Of a stretch of DNA of 37,150 bases, positions 672-28,361 are shown piece by piece; position 1 is the stretch's first letter, and each line of letters opens with the position of its first letter. The position numbers and the translations under genes are program-made. Source of the DNA: an unicellular cyanobacterium SU3 (GTDB taxonomy: Bacteria; Cyanobacteriota; Cyanobacteriia; Cyanobacteriales; Microcystaceae); NCBI GenBank assembly GCA_002172675.1, contig NETF01000195.1:1-37150 (forward strand). The letters are read 5' to 3'. Under the pieces are notes generated by a model, which did not search any database, was not told the origin of the DNA, and was given only the letters and a program-made list of their open reading frames with translations.

Positions 672-1787
672 ATGTTAAGCCGTATCCAAGAGACCGTTGG
701 GGGTTTATTCGGAGGTAAGTCTGATGGAGTAGGTTTAGAAATCACCTCTGAAAGATTGAATCTAGCCAAACTCACCAAACACGGTCAAGGCTATAAAATA
801 GCAAAATTTTGTACTGCTGAAATACCTGAAGGCATTTTTGAGGAGGGAAAAATTGTTGACTCTCCAGGATTAGCTGAAATCATTCAGGAGTTCTTAACCG
901 AGAACAAAATCAAAACCAAACGAATTGCCACAGCAGTCCCCATGCGAGAGGCCATTATTCGCATTATTCCAGTTCCTGCTGAACTCGATGAAGCAGAATT
1001 GCGGGATATGGTCTTAAACCATGAAGCGGCCTTGTACTTACCCTATCCTAGAGAAGAAGTGGATCTAGACTATCAAAAATTAGGCTTCTTTGAAGATGAG
1101 GATGGGATCGAAAAAGTACAAGTTTTGCTGGTCGCCACCCGACGGGAAGTCACAGACTCTTATATGGATACCTTTGGTCAAGCAGGATTACAAATTGATG
1201 TCTTAGAGATCAACAGTTTTTCTGTGATTCGTACCATTCGAGAACAACTGCGACAATTTGGGTCCAGAGAAGCCGCCGTATTAGTTGATGTCGAATTCGA
1301 TAGCACAGAAATTGCCATTATCGTAGATGGGGTTCCCCAATTTTCCAGAACCGTTCCTATAGGGACGTTTCAGATGCAAAATGCCCTCTCACGGGCGATG
1401 AATTTACCCCCTTCTCGTAACCCAGAAATTCTCCAAGGAATGACCATTCCTGTGACCCAGTTTGATAGTTTAACCACCCAGGGAACAGCAGTGAACCCAG
1501 GAATGACCGCATTGATGCGAGTTCTAGGGGAATTAACTGATGAGTTACGCCGTTCTATTAACTTTTACTTAAACCAAAGTGAAGAACTAGAAGTGGTTCA
1601 ATTATTATTAGCAGGGCCGGGAGGAGGATTAGTACAGTTGGACGAATATTTTACCCATCGTCTCAGTTTACCGACCATGCAAATTGACCCCATTGCTGCT
1701 TTATCCTTAGAAATGGATAAGGACATTCCTGCCGTTCAACGGCCAGCCCTGGGAACAGTTTTAGGTTTAGGATTACGGGAGGTGTAA
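672..1787 (+). CDS. pilM: Type IV pilus assembly protein PilM
   Basis: PilM is the cytoplasmic actin-like (FtsA/MreB-fold) protein that binds the short N-terminal tail of PilN and links the inner-membrane alignment complex to the pilus motor. Seen here: 371 aa, the usual length, no membrane segments, an N-terminal GLEITSERLNLAKL strand pattern, the phosphate-binding style DVEFDSTEIAIIVDG segment in the middle, and GPGGGLVQLDEYF towards the end. It is followed after 3 bp by pilN, then pilO and pilQ, the standard cyanobacterial order. These pili drive phototactic twitching and DNA uptake in related species. The ATG at 672 has only a weak upstream purine stretch. Confidence 0.95.
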   Translation: MLSRIQETVGGLFGGKSDGVGLEITSERLNLAKLTKHGQGYKIAKFCTAEIPEGIFEEGKIVDSPGLAEIIQEFLTENKIKTKRIATAVPMREAIIRIIPVPAELDEAELRDMVLNHEAALYLPYPREEVDLDYQKLGFFEDEDGIEKVQVLLVATRREVTDSYMDTFGQAGLQIDVLEINSFSVIRTIREQLRQFGSREAAVLVDVEFDSTEIAIIVDGVPQFSRTVPIGTFQMQNALSRAMNLPPSRNPEILQGMTIPVTQFDSLTTQGTAVNPGMTALMRVLGELTDELRRSINFYLNQSEELEVVQLLLAGPGGGLVQLDEYFTHRLSLPTMQIDPIAALSLEMDKDIPAVQRPALGTVLGLGLREV

Positions 1788-1790
1788 TCT

Positions 1791-2519
1791 ATGTATAGTT
1801 TAGATGTTAATTTTCTTAAAGATCGTCATCTCGAAACCAGTAACAAAACAACCTTAATCACCCAAGCGGGTAATCCATCTTTAAAGGAGCAATTGCCTCT
1901 GATAATCGGTGGTGCAGTCATGGTTGTACTGCCGGCTATCACCGCGAGTTCTTTGTTGCTGTTGAATCAGTTATCTTCCTCAACCGAACAAAGAATTCAA
2001 CAACTAGACAATCAACTAGGACAATTAAGCTCACAGAACCAAAGTATTGAAGAAATTAACGCCAAAGTAGAGCAAAATAACCAAGAAATTCAGTCTTTAG
2101 TCACTGTGTTTAATCAAATTCGTCCTTGGTCAGCTATTTTGAGGGAAATTGAAACACAAATTCCAGCCAATGTTCAAGTTGGGTCTATTGCACAAACGGA
2201 TACTGGAGTAACCATTGGGGGTTATGCCGTGGGTTATGATGACCTCAATGACTTTCTGTTGACCTTACAAAGTTCTCCATTATTAGATGCAGAACAAACA
2301 GCCATTAAGACAGCAACATTAGCAGACTTTCCCGTAGAAACTAGTAATGCCCCTGACAATATAGAAATTGAGTTTCCTCAAGGGGTTCAATATACTATTA
2401 CCACAGCCATTAGCGATCGCCCCTCATCGGAGTTACTTCAAGAGTTTGCTCGTAGTGGGGCAACGGGTCTTGTTAATCGCATTAGAACCCTTGAAAATAA
2501 AGGAGTGCTTAAACCATGA
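1791..2519 (+). CDS. pilN: Type IV pilus assembly protein PilN
   Basis: PilN is a bitopic inner-membrane protein; its N-terminal cytoplasmic tail binds PilM and its periplasmic part pairs with PilO. The sequence shows the diagnostic start MYSLDVNFLKDRH, which matches the conserved PilN INLLP-type tail that docks into PilM. A single transmembrane helix follows at about residues 36-60, then a coiled coil (roughly 62-110) and a ferredoxin-like periplasmic domain. Length 242 aa, slightly longer than the proteobacterial protein, as usual in cyanobacteria. Its stop overlaps the pilO start (ATGA at 2516-2519), which suggests translational coupling. Confidence 0.93.
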   Translation: MYSLDVNFLKDRHLETSNKTTLITQAGNPSLKEQLPLIIGGAVMVVLPAITASSLLLLNQLSSSTEQRIQQLDNQLGQLSSQNQSIEEINAKVEQNNQEIQSLVTVFNQIRPWSAILREIETQIPANVQVGSIAQTDTGVTIGGYAVGYDDLNDFLLTLQSSPLLDAEQTAIKTATLADFPVETSNAPDNIEIEFPQGVQYTITTAISDRPSSELLQEFARSGATGLVNRIRTLENKGVLKP

Positions 2520-3319
2520 CCTTCTCAGAAGAATTTACCAGTACACAAACCGACGTAGATTTTGATGACCTGGGTAGTAATTATCCGACGGCCTTTGGTA
2601 TTACCTTTACCCCGCAAGTGAGTGGCATTTGCTTGGGGTTATTGGGCTTAGTGGGTTCAGTCTATGTTGGATTGACCTTTGTCAAACCAGCCTATGATAA
2701 CTATACTCAACTCAAAGCCACCGAAGCTGAAAAGTTAGCTCAAGTGGCGCAACAAGAATCAGGAGAACTCAGCAGAAAAATGTTAGATGCTGAGCAAAAA
2801 TTGAGAGAGTCCGAAGCCTTAAGAAGTCAAGTCTTATCCTTGTTTTCTAGCGAAGACAGTCTCAAAACCATCCTATTTGATATTAATCAATTAGTCCAAA
2901 AACACCAAGCAGAATTAGTCAGTTTTCAACCCGATGGGACTATTACAGTGGTTGATGATGGCTCCCTAGGAGAAGGAGTGAATGGTCGTCTCAAACGGCA
3001 GCAATTCAATTTAACCGTTAAGGGGGATTTTGACTCAACTCAAAGTCTGCTCAGAGATTTAGAACGTCTCCAACCCTTGTTAGTCGTTAAAGGACTTCAA
3101 ACTAATTTAGCCGAAGAACAATTTATCATTGACATTATTGACGTGAAACAACAAGGAGGGCAAACTGTTGTCACAGGACAAACAAAAAGCAAAGGCAATG
3201 ATTCTTTAGAAACCAGTTTTACCTTAGATGCTATCTTACCCTTAAGTCCAGAGGAAGTAGCAGAATTAACCCCAGAAAAAGAAACATCCGAAGGAGCCGA
3301 ACAACAAGAAGGACAATAA
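2516..3319 (+). CDS. pilO: Type IV pilus assembly protein PilO
   Basis: PilO forms a heterodimer with PilN and connects the inner-membrane platform to the outer-membrane secretin. Visible: a cytoplasmic N-terminus, one transmembrane helix at about residues 35-58 (GICLGLLGLVGSVYVGLTFV), a long coiled coil at 65-120, and a periplasmic alpha/beta domain containing QQFNLTVKGDFDSTQSLLRD, typical of PilO. The C-terminus is a Glu-rich tail (ETSEGAEQQEGQ) of about 25 residues that looks disordered. No pilP gene lies between pilO and pilQ, as is normal for cyanobacteria, so this extended tail may do part of PilP's linking job (inference). The start overlaps pilN by four bases. Confidence 0.92.
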   Translation: MTFSEEFTSTQTDVDFDDLGSNYPTAFGITFTPQVSGICLGLLGLVGSVYVGLTFVKPAYDNYTQLKATEAEKLAQVAQQESGELSRKMLDAEQKLRESEALRSQVLSLFSSEDSLKTILFDINQLVQKHQAELVSFQPDGTITVVDDGSLGEGVNGRLKRQQFNLTVKGDFDSTQSLLRDLERLQPLLVVKGLQTNLAEEQFIIDIIDVKQQGGQTVVTGQTKSKGNDSLETSFTLDAILPLSPEEVAELTPEKETSEGAEQQEGQ

Positions 3320-3367
3320 TCTTCCTCTTAAAATCATTAAAATAGTTCCTAATCCTTTAATGGACAT

Positions 3368-3395
3368 TGTGTGTGTGTGTGTTTTGTGTGTGTGT
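3368..3395 (+). repeat. TG dinucleotide microsatellite before pilQ
   Basis: Seven TG units (3368-3381) and five TG units (3385-3394) are separated by TTT. The run lies in the 92-bp pilO-pilQ gap, ending a few bases before the pilQ Shine-Dalgarno AAGGAG (about 3400-3405). Such runs are prone to slippage. A change in length would alter leader spacing or structure rather than a reading frame. Confidence 0.85.
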
Positions 3396-3411
3396 AAACA
3401 AGGAGTGAACC

Positions 3412-5733
3412 GTGAAACAGTATCATTATCCGCTTATGACCAGTGGAGTGTTGTTAATGCTCCTCTGCTGTGAACCTGTAATGGCATTAGAAGAGTCTAA
3501 ATCTTTCTTTGAGAAGATAGATTATCGAGAAATTGGCCAAGAAAAACCAGAGCCAAAAAACGAGAGTTTTCCTCAAACCCAGTCCCTGTTTGAACAACTC
3601 GATGCCCACTTACCAGAGTTAGATACAAAGAGAGATAAAAAACAAGTCTCTGTTATGGCTTCAGAATGGTCTGAGGAGAAATCAAACGACCCCTTTATCG
3701 CTCAAATCCCCAACTATTCCCCACCCCCAGAACAAATCTATCAAGCGCCTACCCCTAACCCCCCTTCTGGACCCATGAGTGAGTCAGAAGTGCTAGTTCC
3801 CAACCCTGAAGTTATCATCAAATCCAACGGCAGTTCTATTCCTGATAGCTTACAACCCACTATGCCCGTAGCCCCCACATTACCACGGGCGATCGCTCCA
3901 CCAGTGGGAGATATGGCTATTTCTAATATTAACGCAGGGGCATCTGAAATCGATTTAGGCAGTGGTGCCATTGTGCCACGGTTGGTGCTTAGAGAAGCAC
4001 CTGCCAGAGAAGTCCTAGCGGTACTCGCTCGTTTTGCCGGAGTTAACTTGGTGTTTACCGATACCCCTGGAGGTGGTCAAGGTCAAGGACAGGGACAAAC
4101 TGCAACCGAACCGACCGTATCCTTAGATTTAGAAAATGAACCCGTCCAAGATGTCTTTAACTCGGTGTTGATGATTTCGGGACTACAAGCAAACCGCCGA
4201 GGCCGCACCGTATTCGTAGGGTCTCGCTTGCCCCAAGCAGCCCGTAACTTAGTCAGTCGTACCCTACGCCTCAACCAGGTAAAATCCGCTAACGCAGGGG
4301 TATTTTTAGCCTCCCAAGGGGCAGAGTTTCAAAGGTTAGTGACTCAAACCGAAGATATTATCGACCCCTTAACTCAACGGGTGGTCGGACGTAGAGAACT
4401 CCCTAGTACCCTCGAATCATTAACCTCCGAAGCCGATGAGGGGTCGTCCGGTGCGATGTTACTCAAGGGGTTAACCGTCTCTTCTGATGATCGTCTTAAC
4501 ACCGTTACTTTAGTGGGAGAACCCCGAGATGTCCAAGTAGCGACCTCTTTATTAACTCAAATGGATGCCCGTCGTCGTCAAGTGGCAGTTAACGTGAAGG
4601 TCGTTGATGTCACCCTCACCAACGATCAATCCTTTAGCAGTAACTTCTCCTTCGGTTCTGACGATGCTTTTATTGTTCAAGACGATGGGGCTGCACTGCT
4701 AAGATTTGGGGGCTTTAGTCCTGTTAGCGGTGACGATCTCAACAATGCGCCCAGTCGGGTAACTAATCCCCCCGTCATTGATAACCCCTTACTCGAGGGT
4801 AATACCTTTATCGATTTTAATCGCTCGATCATTGCCCCAGGACAAGGAGGCGGACTTTTGTTCCTTGATGATATGGGGAACTTAATTCGTGTACCTACGG
4901 ATGCAGAATTTTTTGGGCGAGTTGCTGGTGTCTCTATGGATCCTAGCATTGCAGGGATTACTGATATTACCCCAGGGGAAGCAGATACTTTTGAGAGAAC
5001 CTTTGACCCTGAAACAGGCTTTATTAGCACGACTGTAACCCCTGGAAGTATCGCCACCGCCGAGGCGGCTCTTCCTAGTTTCTTCCAATTCCCTAGACGC
5101 TTTTTAGCTCAAATTGAAACCAATATCCAAAGTGGTAACGCTAAGGTTCTCACTGATCCGACTCTCGTGGTTCAAGAAGGACAAGAAGCAACGGTTAAAC
5201 TCACTCAGAAGGTCATTGAAAACATTACGACTCAGGTTGATCCCTTGAGTGGTGTGCGGACAACAACCCCGGTGTTACAAGATGCAGGATTAACCTTAGC
5301 GATTAATGTCGATAAAATTGATGATAATGGTTATATTAACCTTACCGTTAGTCCTACCATTGCTGCGGTTGGGGATGTTCAATCCTTTGATGCTGGGGCT
5401 GATGGCGGTACAAATAATCTCTTCCTCTTAAACCGTCGAGAATTAAGTTCTGGTTTAATTCGTTTGAGGGATGGTCAGACTTTGATTCTATCAGGAATTA
5501 TTAGTGAAACGGATCAATCTACTACCAGTAAGGTTCCTTTATTGGGGGATATTCCTTTACTTGGGGCTTTATTTAGAAGTCAAACAGACAGTTCCCAACG
5601 AACTGAGGTGATTGTCTTATTAACCCCTCAAATTCTCCATGATAATGGTCAATGGGGTTACAATTATCAACCTGGACGAGGAACGGCTGATGTTTTACGA
5701 GATCAAGGTTTCCCTGTTCAGTTAATCCCCTAA
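3412..5733 (+). CDS. pilQ: Type IV pilus outer-membrane secretin PilQ
   Basis: PilQ forms the gated outer-membrane ring through which the pilus fibre passes. The GTG start is set by the well-placed AAGGAG at about 3400. A signal peptide precedes VMALEES (about residues 1-26), followed by a long Pro/Glu-rich low-complexity linker to about residue 180. A secretin/TonB short N-terminal domain begins at VPRLVLREAPAREVLAVLA, an N1-type domain follows, and the C-terminal secretin barrel contains the family signature VPLLGDIPLLGALFRS near residues 720-735, then TEVIVLLTPQIL. The STN domain carries a small GQGQGQGQ insert. At 773 aa it has the usual cyanobacterial length. It ends the pilMNOQ operon and is followed by a terminator. 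Confidence 0.95.
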   Translation: MKQYHYPLMTSGVLLMLLCCEPVMALEESKSFFEKIDYREIGQEKPEPKNESFPQTQSLFEQLDAHLPELDTKRDKKQVSVMASEWSEEKSNDPFIAQIPNYSPPPEQIYQAPTPNPPSGPMSESEVLVPNPEVIIKSNGSSIPDSLQPTMPVAPTLPRAIAPPVGDMAISNINAGASEIDLGSGAIVPRLVLREAPAREVLAVLARFAGVNLVFTDTPGGGQGQGQGQTATEPTVSLDLENEPVQDVFNSVLMISGLQANRRGRTVFVGSRLPQAARNLVSRTLRLNQVKSANAGVFLASQGAEFQRLVTQTEDIIDPLTQRVVGRRELPSTLESLTSEADEGSSGAMLLKGLTVSSDDRLNTVTLVGEPRDVQVATSLLTQMDARRRQVAVNVKVVDVTLTNDQSFSSNFSFGSDDAFIVQDDGAALLRFGGFSPVSGDDLNNAPSRVTNPPVIDNPLLEGNTFIDFNRSIIAPGQGGGLLFLDDMGNLIRVPTDAEFFGRVAGVSMDPSIAGITDITPGEADTFERTFDPETGFISTTVTPGSIATAEAALPSFFQFPRRFLAQIETNIQSGNAKVLTDPTLVVQEGQEATVKLTQKVIENITTQVDPLSGVRTTTPVLQDAGLTLAINVDKIDDNGYINLTVSPTIAAVGDVQSFDAGADGGTNNLFLLNRRELSSGLIRLRDGQTLILSGIISETDQSTTSKVPLLGDIPLLGALFRSQTDSSQRTEVIVLLTPQILHDNGQWGYNYQPGRGTADVLRDQGFPVQLIP

Positions 5734-25925: not shown

Positions 25926-26462
25926 TTACGTTGGTGTGACTTAAATATGGTCAAATAAAAATTTTATATAGTCAGTCTAAATAAATCGCAAAAACTGTAG
26001 CTCAAGTTTTTAGTTTGTAACAGGCAGGTTTGTATTGAGTTTGCCGAGGTAATGCCTGTGTTACTGTTCATAAATGATTTAGACTGGTTATAGATGAAAA
26101 TCTATAATGTTATTTTAATTAGCTATCGATGAGTATGATATAATTGTTTTGATATAAAAAGAAAAACACCATTCAAAAGTTACTAACCAATTAAACAGCA
26201 TATTAATACTATATTATTTGTTGTTTTCATAAACAAATATTAATTTTAGATATGTTTATGATTACTACAATTTTTTGATTTGTTGTTTCAAAAAAATTAA
26301 GCTTTAATTATAGTCTAGCTGAGTAACTTTAATCATAATCGATGATAGTTTTAATAATTGATCTGGGAATAATAATACTAATAAAATTAATTCATCGTAA
26401 TTACAAAATATGATTGTTATTAATGATGAACGTATAAGTCACCTGTTTTTTGAGGTTTTAGT
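25926..26462. other. Long AT-rich intergenic region upstream of the GGDEF-EAL gene
   Basis: 537 bp without a convincing gene. GTAACAGGCA (26017-26026) and TGCCTGTGTTAC (26053-26064) can pair with a 2-base bulge and a 26-base loop, a possible terminator or regulatory hairpin without a T tail. The sequence from 26100 to 26440 is very AT-rich and probably includes the promoter of the signalling gene. I looked for c-di-GMP riboswitch-like sequence and saw none. Confidence 0.45.
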
Positions 26463-28361
26463 ATGGATTATCGCCATAGTATTTTTAATGCAGCGATCGC
26501 CTTTGCTTATTGTTTGATCCCTGTTTTACTTTTACCTGTATTAAAGAATGCTCAACGAACTATTTGGCTTAACTTACTATTAGCAATTGCTTTTGTTTTT
26601 AGTTGTGGAATCGGACATTTCTTATCAGCCCTTCACTATCATCTTACCTATTGGCATCTCGTCACAGCAATTACATCCTGGCTTGCGGTCATTGCATTAG
26701 CTAAAAGTCAACCTCAATTACGTTATTTATCAAAAACATTTCAGTTATTAGATGCCACTTGGAATAAATCTATGACAGGAAATCTTTTATTTGAGAGAGT
26801 AGATGATGATTTAAAATTGCTAAAAATCAATAATATTGGTAAAAAAATATTTAATAATCAATTAAAAATTGGGGATTTTTTAAGTCAAAAGTTTCCCGTT
26901 TTTTCAGAAATTATTTATCCACAAAAAACACCATTAATTCAATTATATCTACAAGCGTTTGAAATTCAGGAATCCCAACAACTAAAAATTCATTACGAAA
27001 CCCAATTAGTAGGGCATTTTATTAATATCTTTGTCCCCCTTTCTCAAAAATTACTTTATGTTACTTTTCTAGATATTAGTCCCCGAAATCGTGATATTTT
27101 AACGGGATTATACAATCGTCGATTCTTTAATTTAGAAACTCGACAGTGGCAAAGCTGTATATATATTGATTTAGATCGATTCAAGCGCATTAATGACCAA
27201 AGGGGACACCAATTAGGAGATAAAATATTGATAGCTGTTGCAGAAATATTGCAAACCTATGCCAAACGTTACGAAGGCATTGCTACTCGAGAAGGAGGAG
27301 ATGAATTTATACTATTATTTCCTATCATTGAAGTTTATTCTATTGCCGTCTCAATTCTTCAAGACATTCAAATCTTAGACATTGAAGGAGCAAAAGTGAG
27401 TGCTTCTATGGGTATTGCTACCAATAATCTTCCCGAATGTGAACAGGATAAATCCATAAATAAATTACGACAAATTGCAGAAACCGCTACCAGAGAAGCA
27501 AAAAGCGATCGCCGTTCTGAATTACCTGAAAATCGTATCCGTCTTTGGAATCGTGAGTTAGCCAGTCAATATGCTCGTCAAATGTTGATAGAATCCTATC
27601 TGCGACAACCTGGAATAGAAAACGAACGGTGGTTAGTCTATCAACCGATTGTTTCTTTGACAACAGGAGAAATCGTCGGAGCAGAGGCTTTAATTCGATG
27701 GAGTTCCCCAGAATTAGGCATGATTTCTCCAGGAGAATTTATTCCGATTGCTGAAGGAGTGGGATTAACCTATCCTATTAGTGACTGGGTTTTGCGTGAA
27801 GGTTTACAACAATTGAAAGAATGGCACTCAATTAAACCTAATTTTTGGTTATCGTTTAATCTCAGTGCAGCCGAATTAGAAGATCAAATCTTTATCGAAC
27901 AGCTTTATCAGCATATTATTGAGGCCAATATCAGTCCCTATTTAGTAGGATTAGAAATTACAGAACGGGTCATTTATCAAAACTTAGAATTATATCGTCA
28001 AAGTTTAGATTGGTTAAAGAAAATGTCTGTTCGCTTGAAAGTGGATGATTTTGGTACCGGACAAGCGGGTTTGATACAATTATTACAATTTCATTTTGAT
28101 GAAGTGAAAGTTGATCGTTCTTTTATGCCAAACAATGAAACCGATACAGAAAAATTAGCCATCTGCAAAGCCATCGCTACTATCGCTCAAGAAATGCAAT
28201 TTAGTTTAGTTGCAGAAGGAATTGAAACCCTCGAACAACAAGAAATTATTTCTAATTTGGGATATAACTATGGTCAAGGCTATTATTTTGCTAAGCCCAT
28301 GATGGCCGACAGTCTAACGAAAGAATTAGAGGAAAAGAGTCAGTATTTTAGGGTAAATTAA
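26463..28361 (+). CDS. GGDEF-EAL cyclic-di-GMP protein with an ethylene-receptor-like membrane domain
   Basis: 632 aa. Residues 1-85 form three transmembrane helices with the layout of the ETR1 ethylene-binding domain: AFAYCLIP gives Tyr16, Ile19 and Pro20, and SCGIGH gives Cys48 and His52, the copper-ligand pair. The position equivalent to the essential Asp25 of ETR1 is Asn9. A variable linker (about 90-215) follows. The GGDEF cyclase is intact (GGDEF at 278-282; YIDLDRFKRIND), but its inhibitory RxxD is degenerate (RYEG). The EAL phosphodiesterase keeps EAL (408-410), DDFGTG, KVDRSF and AEGIE, so it may be active. Both activities are possible. The ligand is unknown; ethylene, copper or another small hydrophobic signal are candidates (inference). 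Confidence 0.9.
   Translation: MDYRHSIFNAAIAFAYCLIPVLLLPVLKNAQRTIWLNLLLAIAFVFSCGIGHFLSALHYHLTYWHLVTAITSWLAVIALAKSQPQLRYLSKTFQLLDATWNKSMTGNLLFERVDDDLKLLKINNIGKKIFNNQLKIGDFLSQKFPVFSEIIYPQKTPLIQLYLQAFEIQESQQLKIHYETQLVGHFINIFVPLSQKLLYVTFLDISPRNRDILTGLYNRRFFNLETRQWQSCIYIDLDRFKRINDQRGHQLGDKILIAVAEILQTYAKRYEGIATREGGDEFILLFPIIEVYSIAVSILQDIQILDIEGAKVSASMGIATNNLPECEQDKSINKLRQIAETATREAKSDRRSELPENRIRLWNRELASQYARQMLIESYLRQPGIENERWLVYQPIVSLTTGEIVGAEALIRWSSPELGMISPGEFIPIAEGVGLTYPISDWVLREGLQQLKEWHSIKPNFWLSFNLSAAELEDQIFIEQLYQHIIEANISPYLVGLEITERVIYQNLELYRQSLDWLKKMSVRLKVDDFGTGQAGLIQLLQFHFDEVKVDRSFMPNNETDTEKLAICKAIATIAQEMQFSLVAEGIETLEQQEIISNLGYNYGQGYYFAKPMMADSLTKELEEKSQYFRVN

Follow-up and report, generated by a model that had tools for sequence, protein, structure and literature searches.

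The gene under study lies in a 37,150-nucleotide stretch of contig NETF01000195.1 from the unicellular cyanobacterium SU3; we refer to this whole stretch as the window. The gene encodes an ethylene-receptor-type membrane domain (ETR1_N) that is followed by a linker, a GGDEF domain and an EAL domain (Table 1). Pfam assigned its upstream neighbours to a short-chain dehydrogenase, LptF/G and an ABC transporter, and its downstream neighbours to a TPR protein and a kinase-GUN4 protein; no partner gene was evident among them. Type IV pilus genes (PilM, PilN, an open reading frame that matched no Pfam family, and a secretin) occupy positions 672–5733, about 20 kb upstream. Rfam and tRNA scans found nothing, promoter and terminator scans gave no more matches than in shuffled sequence and a plasmid search returned no match. 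A foreign origin was not supported by composition, with a GC3 of 0.248 in the gene and 0.312 ± 0.067 in 21 other open reading frames.

Table 1 Features of the ETR1_N–GGDEF–EAL gene and its protein (positions are those of the window).
Feature	Position	Strand	Basis
ETR1_N–linker–GGDEF–EAL gene, 632 aa	26463..28361	+	Intact open reading frame and Pfam
Shine–Dalgarno-like TTGAGG	26450–26455	+	Sequence reading, 5' of the gene
ETR1_N (ethylene-receptor-type) membrane domain, aa 5–86	26475..26720	+	PF25487 and hhalign
Asn9, ETR1 Asp25 position	26487..26489	+	Alignments and residue check
Cys48, ETR1 Cys65 (Cu ligand)	26604..26606	+	Alignment and residue check
His52, ETR1 His69 (Cu ligand)	26616..26618	+	Alignment and residue check
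His65, ETR1 Lys91 position (published Asp25 partner)	26655..26657	+	hmmalign, MAFFT and hhalign agree for the window protein
Linker, aa 87–208, PAS-like by eye only	26721..27086	+	
GGDEF domain, aa 209–352	27087..27518	+	PF00990, E 5e-25
GGDEF motif, intact	27294–27308	+	Residue check
EAL phosphodiesterase domain, aa 387–612	27621..28298	+	PF00563, E 1.1e-62

A first-pass annotation, made from the sequence alone, had proposed an ETR1-type domain at the N terminus of a GGDEF–EAL protein, and the domain searches bore out both the sensor and the fusion. The whole protein matched Pfam PF25487 (ETR1_N, cut-off of 27 bits) with 37.1 bits (E 3.8e-9) over aa 5–86, and the sensor domain alone scored 42.6 bits. 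Comparison by hhalign of a profile of the four-member subfamily described below with 15 canonical cyanobacterial ETR1_N domains gave a probability of 97.7% and an E value of 1.5e-12; the likeness is thus not due to chance. A rival identity is an unrelated MASE-type membrane domain that resembles ETR1_N by accident. Nothing spoke for it: no MASE family appeared among the Pfam matches at E ≤ 1, the sensor scored above the ETR1_N cut-off and the hhalign comparison was strong; at the level of profile evidence this identity is refuted, and we consider it extremely improbable. The sensor score is nevertheless far below that of canonical domains (41 bits versus 138 for the canonical gene of the same genome and 128–160 for the other matches listed). 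In a Kyte–Doolittle scan with 19-residue windows, values in the sensor exceeded 1.6 at aa 5–30 and 32–58 only, a crude measure that also exceeded 1.6 at aa 280–302 in the soluble GGDEF domain; the third sensor segment reached 1.69 in 17-residue windows, within the 5–95% range of the other genes (1.32–2.32). When sequences of solved structures were searched with the whole protein, the best 60 of 88 matches covered aa 189–625 (GGDEF/EAL), with nothing real for the sensor. The sole phmmer structure match of the sensor domain, DETOXIFICATION 14 (E 0.13), was judged to be chance. Two Oceanobacter loci found in a contig scan with the whole protein matched only at aa 211–618, the GGDEF–EAL part.

ETR1 requires seven residues: D25, Y32, I35, P36, I62, C65 and H69. 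The window sensor is identical at five of these and differs at D25 (Asn9) and I62 (Val45). The five are Tyr16, Ile19, Pro20, Cys48 and His52, the last two being the equivalents of the copper ligands Cys65 and His69, and alignments together with a residue check confirmed the assignment of Asn9 and of both ligands made in the first-pass annotation. Its claim that the ETR1 spacing is kept is inexact for the Tyr-to-Cys distance, which is 32 residues in the window sensor versus 33 in ETR1. The number of required residues is given as seven in a published account of ethylene receptors (PMC6682694). His5 corresponds to the histidine of LHxxSD, a motif common in cyanobacteria.

Three further changes had been overlooked: the loss of Lys91, a missing N-terminal cap and a shortened loop. 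The sensor lacks the Asp25–Lys91 pair and has Asn9 and His65 instead. Between helices 2 and 3, the stretch that joins His52 to the T-A motif Thr in helix 3 measures 16 residues in the window sensor, 18 in proteins of the genus g193 and 22 in 190 of 195 ETR1_N genes. The N-terminal cysteine cap (HGxC) that marks cyanobacterial and plant receptor dimers, found with a loose pattern in 188 of the 195 genes, is absent from the window protein and from L121, L122 and L123; the other genes without HGxC are L183 (genome G291), L320, which is cut by a contig end, and L239, which has QGYC and keeps the cysteine. An in-frame TGA at 26451–26453 precedes the window gene, and no PHGxCYLW cap is encoded in any of the three forward frames over 26100–26462, which rules out an annotation or frameshift artefact. 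Judged by its motifs, L183, which lies outside the window's subfamily, is a histidine kinase; it combines Asn25 and His91. Its relatives L193 and L203 are capped and combine Asn25 with Gly or Ser at position 91. Elsewhere, the domain of L181 (G567) keeps Asp25, has Phe where Cys65 is expected and probably cannot bind copper.

A search of 50 genomes of the window's family (own genome included; 8 are congeners) yielded no close relative; the best match there, in G042, is a canonical capped kinase with 37% identity. We built a subfamily profile and applied it to overlapping genome sets (386 from the phylum as a whole, 14 from the family of G494 and 388 from the order). Four members scored at least 135 bits, and no other match exceeded 54 bits. 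The three kin (G551, G559 and G494) belong to one genus, g193, of another family and are 32–34% identical to the window protein over its full length. They share with it a short capless ETR1_N domain, the shortened loop, a linker and an intact EAL output, and differ in their degenerate GGDEF motif (GADAF or GADGF). Their residues at positions 25 and 91 are Asn/His, Asn/His and, in G494, Asp/Arg; Asn is thus not a hallmark of the subfamily, as the same architecture also occurs with Asp25/Arg91. The placement of the His or Arg of the kin in column 91 comes from hmmalign, and the larger MAFFT alignment shifts it; for the window protein the three methods give the same pairing. Despite the low identity, the Cys65 and His69 equivalents are kept in all four members, which share 25 invariant columns including H5, I12, A13, A15, Y16, I19, P20, C48 and H52. 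The GGDEF–EAL half had nothing above 40% identity among the matches listed from 59 genomes (own included, E ≤ 1e-60), ruling out a recent sensor swap onto an older GGDEF–EAL protein.

In the enzyme half, the EAL residues E408, N466, E498, D528, D529, K549, D551, E585 and Q605, which we take to be the catalytic and metal-binding positions, are all present and are invariant in the four members. This points to phosphodiesterase as the predicted conserved activity of the subfamily. The window GGDEF domain reads REGGDEF, has the metal-binding Asp residues D236 and D238, and falls about 15 positions short of the profile length. The linker matched no Pfam family at E ≤ 1 (aa 87–211 scanned).

The first-pass annotation had proposed surveying homologues for Asn versus Asp at position 25. 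We counted 191 distinct cyanobacterial ETR1_N genes, of which 190 could be read at this position (169 Asp, 21 Asn) and one is a fragment with a gap; no other residue occurred. Cys65 was kept in 189 and His69 in 190 of the 191. This set was assembled with no motif filter; the 195-gene set used for other counts holds more loci and required CGxxH, leaving out the Asp-type genes L268 (CATGH) and L181 as well as the second fragment of a broken gene on contig C167. Both sets consist of search matches, near-copies included, whose ranking depended in part on similarity to the window, and are not a random sample; 120 regions were taken from the top of the matches listed, own-genome rows apart, so that divergent ETR1_N domains are under-counted. 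On a poorly resolved tree of 190 genes and ETR1 (94 columns), the Asp/Asn label changed ten times on the best topology, and at least three changes were forced by well-supported branches. Given its presence in 21 of 190 genes and these ten switches, Asn25 is a recurrent and tolerated state in cyanobacteria. Natural Asn25 also occurs with Cys65 and His69 in histidine kinases such as L124, L127 and L128, but these are capped, have Lys or Arg at position 91 and have a PAS–histidine kinase output (by Pfam for L124 and by motif for L127 and L128).

In ETR1-type receptors, Asn here is known as a tuning variant, and natural cases have already been noted in print. The abstract of the primary paper (Azhar 2023) reportedly describes a functional Asp-to-Asn receptor with about 100-fold lower affinity. 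The D25 change reported to eliminate binding was one to Ala. According to a 2026 review, ETR1 with Asn in place of Asp still works as a receptor, its ethylene affinity is lowered about 100-fold, and natural variants also occur (PMC13012798); another source states that mutation of D25 eliminates binding, with the substitution unnamed in the passage concerned (PMC11819568). The annotation's premise that Asp25 is essential and that Asn excludes ordinary ethylene binding is therefore not supported. The plant variant (PMC13012798) has Asn at the same site as the window protein, but it is an engineered AtETR1 that keeps Lys91, whereas in the window protein position 91 is His, position 62 is Val and the cap is missing as well. 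As Asp25 has been counted among the copper-site residues (PMC12643061), Asn9 may, by analogy, also weaken copper binding.

In ETR1-type receptors, Asp is described as bridging to Lys (PMC13012798, PMC11819568), and the residue at position 91 differs with that at position 25. In the 191-gene set, Asp25 was accompanied by Lys in 133 genes, Arg in 25, Gln in 9, Asp in one and a gap in one, and Asn25 by Arg in 8, Lys in 6, His in 4 and Ser, Gly and Leu in one each. All four His91 genes have Asn25. A non-basic residue 91 occurred in 7 of 22 Asn versus 12 of 173 Asp genes of the 195-gene set (Fisher 0.0019, with kinship ignored). By weighted mutual information with APC, columns 25 and 91 were mutual best partners at 70% weighting, ranking 10 of 3,837 pairs. 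Column 91 was the best partner of column 25 at weightings of 60, 70, 80 and 90% (ranks 25, 10, 51 and 117); the pair ranked 12 when the window's subfamily was removed and dropped to 39 without the His91 rows. The best rank among 60 shuffles of column 25 was 535. A phylogeny-aware pairs test found 3 usable pairs on well-supported branches, too few to decide. Judged from these alignments, positions 25 and 91 covary across cyanobacteria, and kinship may contribute.

The annotation had considered a link to c-di-GMP notable. The fusion is real, but it is not unique to the Asn type. Of 143 ETR1_N genes complete at the 3' end, 12 encode a GGDEF domain and 4 of these also an EAL domain (the window gene and its three kin), making the ETR1_N–EAL fusion rare; the remaining 48 genes had a GGDEF match in 4. 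Like the window protein, the minimal ETR1_N–GGDEF proteins L007, L132, L143 and L171 (301–357 aa, confirmed by Pfam; L171 is located in G494) have the sensor fused directly to a c-di-GMP enzyme. They differ from it in being canonical at the eight tabulated positions (the ethylene site and 91) and in the lack of an EAL domain, and their GGDEF motif is intact; on these features they are candidate ethylene-responsive diguanylate cyclases. Because canonical Asp25/Lys91 domains are also fused to GGDEF, the predicted c-di-GMP link is not special to the Asn type.

The window's own genome encodes a canonical Asp25/Lys91 ETR1_N–GAF–HisKA–HATPase–REC protein (L125, positions 80–4767 of contig C51), followed on the same strand by a REC–GGDEF–EAL gene with an open frame at 74 bp and the first Met at 149 bp after the kinase stop. 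The two genes are likely to form a two-component route from receptor to c-di-GMP, which would give this genome a second possible ethylene-to-c-di-GMP route. Its third ETR1_N gene (L126, about 2301–2781 of contig C167) is split across two reading frames, either a decayed gene or an assembly error; in the congener G006, the open frame of a similar gene (L009) extends over 676 aa. In published work, a predicted diguanylate-cyclase gene adjoins GeiEtr2 (PMC6682694), and as a check of our data two G505 loci, both Asp25, sit at the published GeiEtr1 and GeiEtr2 coordinates. Among the matches listed in a search of the open-licence literature by title or abstract start, we found no paper on an ETR1_N or ethylene-binding fusion with GGDEF, EAL or c-di-GMP, and a term search of a 2022 census of stimuli for c-di-GMP (PMC8846402) found neither ethylene nor copper in its main text.

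The reading that we prefer, and to which we give about an even chance, is that the gene would encode a sensor of the ethylene type, dependent on Cu(I) and of low affinity, that governs a c-di-GMP phosphodiesterase. Domain identities, residues, covariation and the intact EAL catalytic residues are its observed part; we infer the copper, the ligand, the membrane topology, the direction of the effect and the net enzyme activity. The product would sit in the inner membrane and act on c-di-GMP, most likely with net phosphodiesterase activity, under the control of an ETR1-type sensor whose Cu(I) would be bound between the helices by Cys48 and His52. Asn9 and His65 would swap the usual charged pair for an uncharged or weakly charged one, lowering ethylene affinity and altering the coupling of the pocket to the output. 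Binding of ligand, or of copper, would shift the helices and act via the linker on the GGDEF–EAL part to change c-di-GMP.

The lost cap, Val45 and the low profile score call for caution, and they bear on two other explanations. The sensor may have lost ligand binding and now serve to anchor a GGDEF–EAL enzyme in the membrane or to dimerise it, the enzyme being constitutive or regulated in another way, an explanation that fits the low Pfam score, the loss of the cap and its Cys, the shortened loop, the Val at the Ile62 position and the orphan distribution. We judge it unlikely: the four members, although three are of one genus, share 25 invariant columns, and the strict alternation of Asp and Asn at position 25 together with the kept Cys and His argues against a dead domain. 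Alternatively, the sensor may read Cu(I), or redox, CO or another small ligand, with copper occupancy of Cys48 and His52 as the signal and c-di-GMP turnover as the output. Retention of the copper ligands while the Asp25/Lys91 pair and Ile62 changed would suit this, as would the loss of the N-terminal cap; however, ETR1 with Asn25 is described as still functional for ethylene (PMC13012798), and a Pfam scan of 20 other window proteins revealed no copper protein (the window has 40 open reading frames of at least 90 aa). We regard this explanation too as unlikely, if slightly less so than the loss of ligand binding.

A wider model builds on two genomes. G494 encodes both ETR1_N–GGDEF and short ETR1_N–EAL proteins, and the window genome has the canonical receptor kinase beside the REC–GGDEF–EAL gene as well as the ETR1_N–GGDEF–EAL protein. 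Some cyanobacteria might run two opposing c-di-GMP arms of differing affinity, in which a canonical Asp25/Lys91 receptor would drive synthesis and a capless subfamily receptor breakdown, setting a dose window for ethylene or a copper-bound ligand. In the window genome, G551 and G559, the Asn–His pair would correspond to low affinity; the Asp–Arg pair of the G494 EAL protein is left unexplained by this model, which we consider a long shot.

Among known systems, Synechocystis slr1212 (SynEtr1/UirS/PixA) presumably has the canonical Asp25 and a capped N terminus. It likewise has an N-terminal ETR1-type ethylene-binding domain in a cyanobacterial protein, as described in accounts of this receptor (PMC6682694, PMC5812497), but its output is a cyanobacteriochrome and histidine kinase whereas that of the window protein is GGDEF–EAL. 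On the comparisons made here, the window protein is a rare variant, a stripped-down ethylene-receptor sensor on a predicted c-di-GMP-degrading enzyme, with a second change beside the Asn. In these proteins both residues of the proposed Asp25–Lys91 switch vary naturally with the copper ligands retained, providing a natural test of whether the pair acts in affinity, signalling or both. The read-out for the pair is here predicted to be enzymatic, with c-di-GMP hydrolysis replacing a histidine kinase, and through the subfamily ethylene or copper would join the signals that feed c-di-GMP networks.
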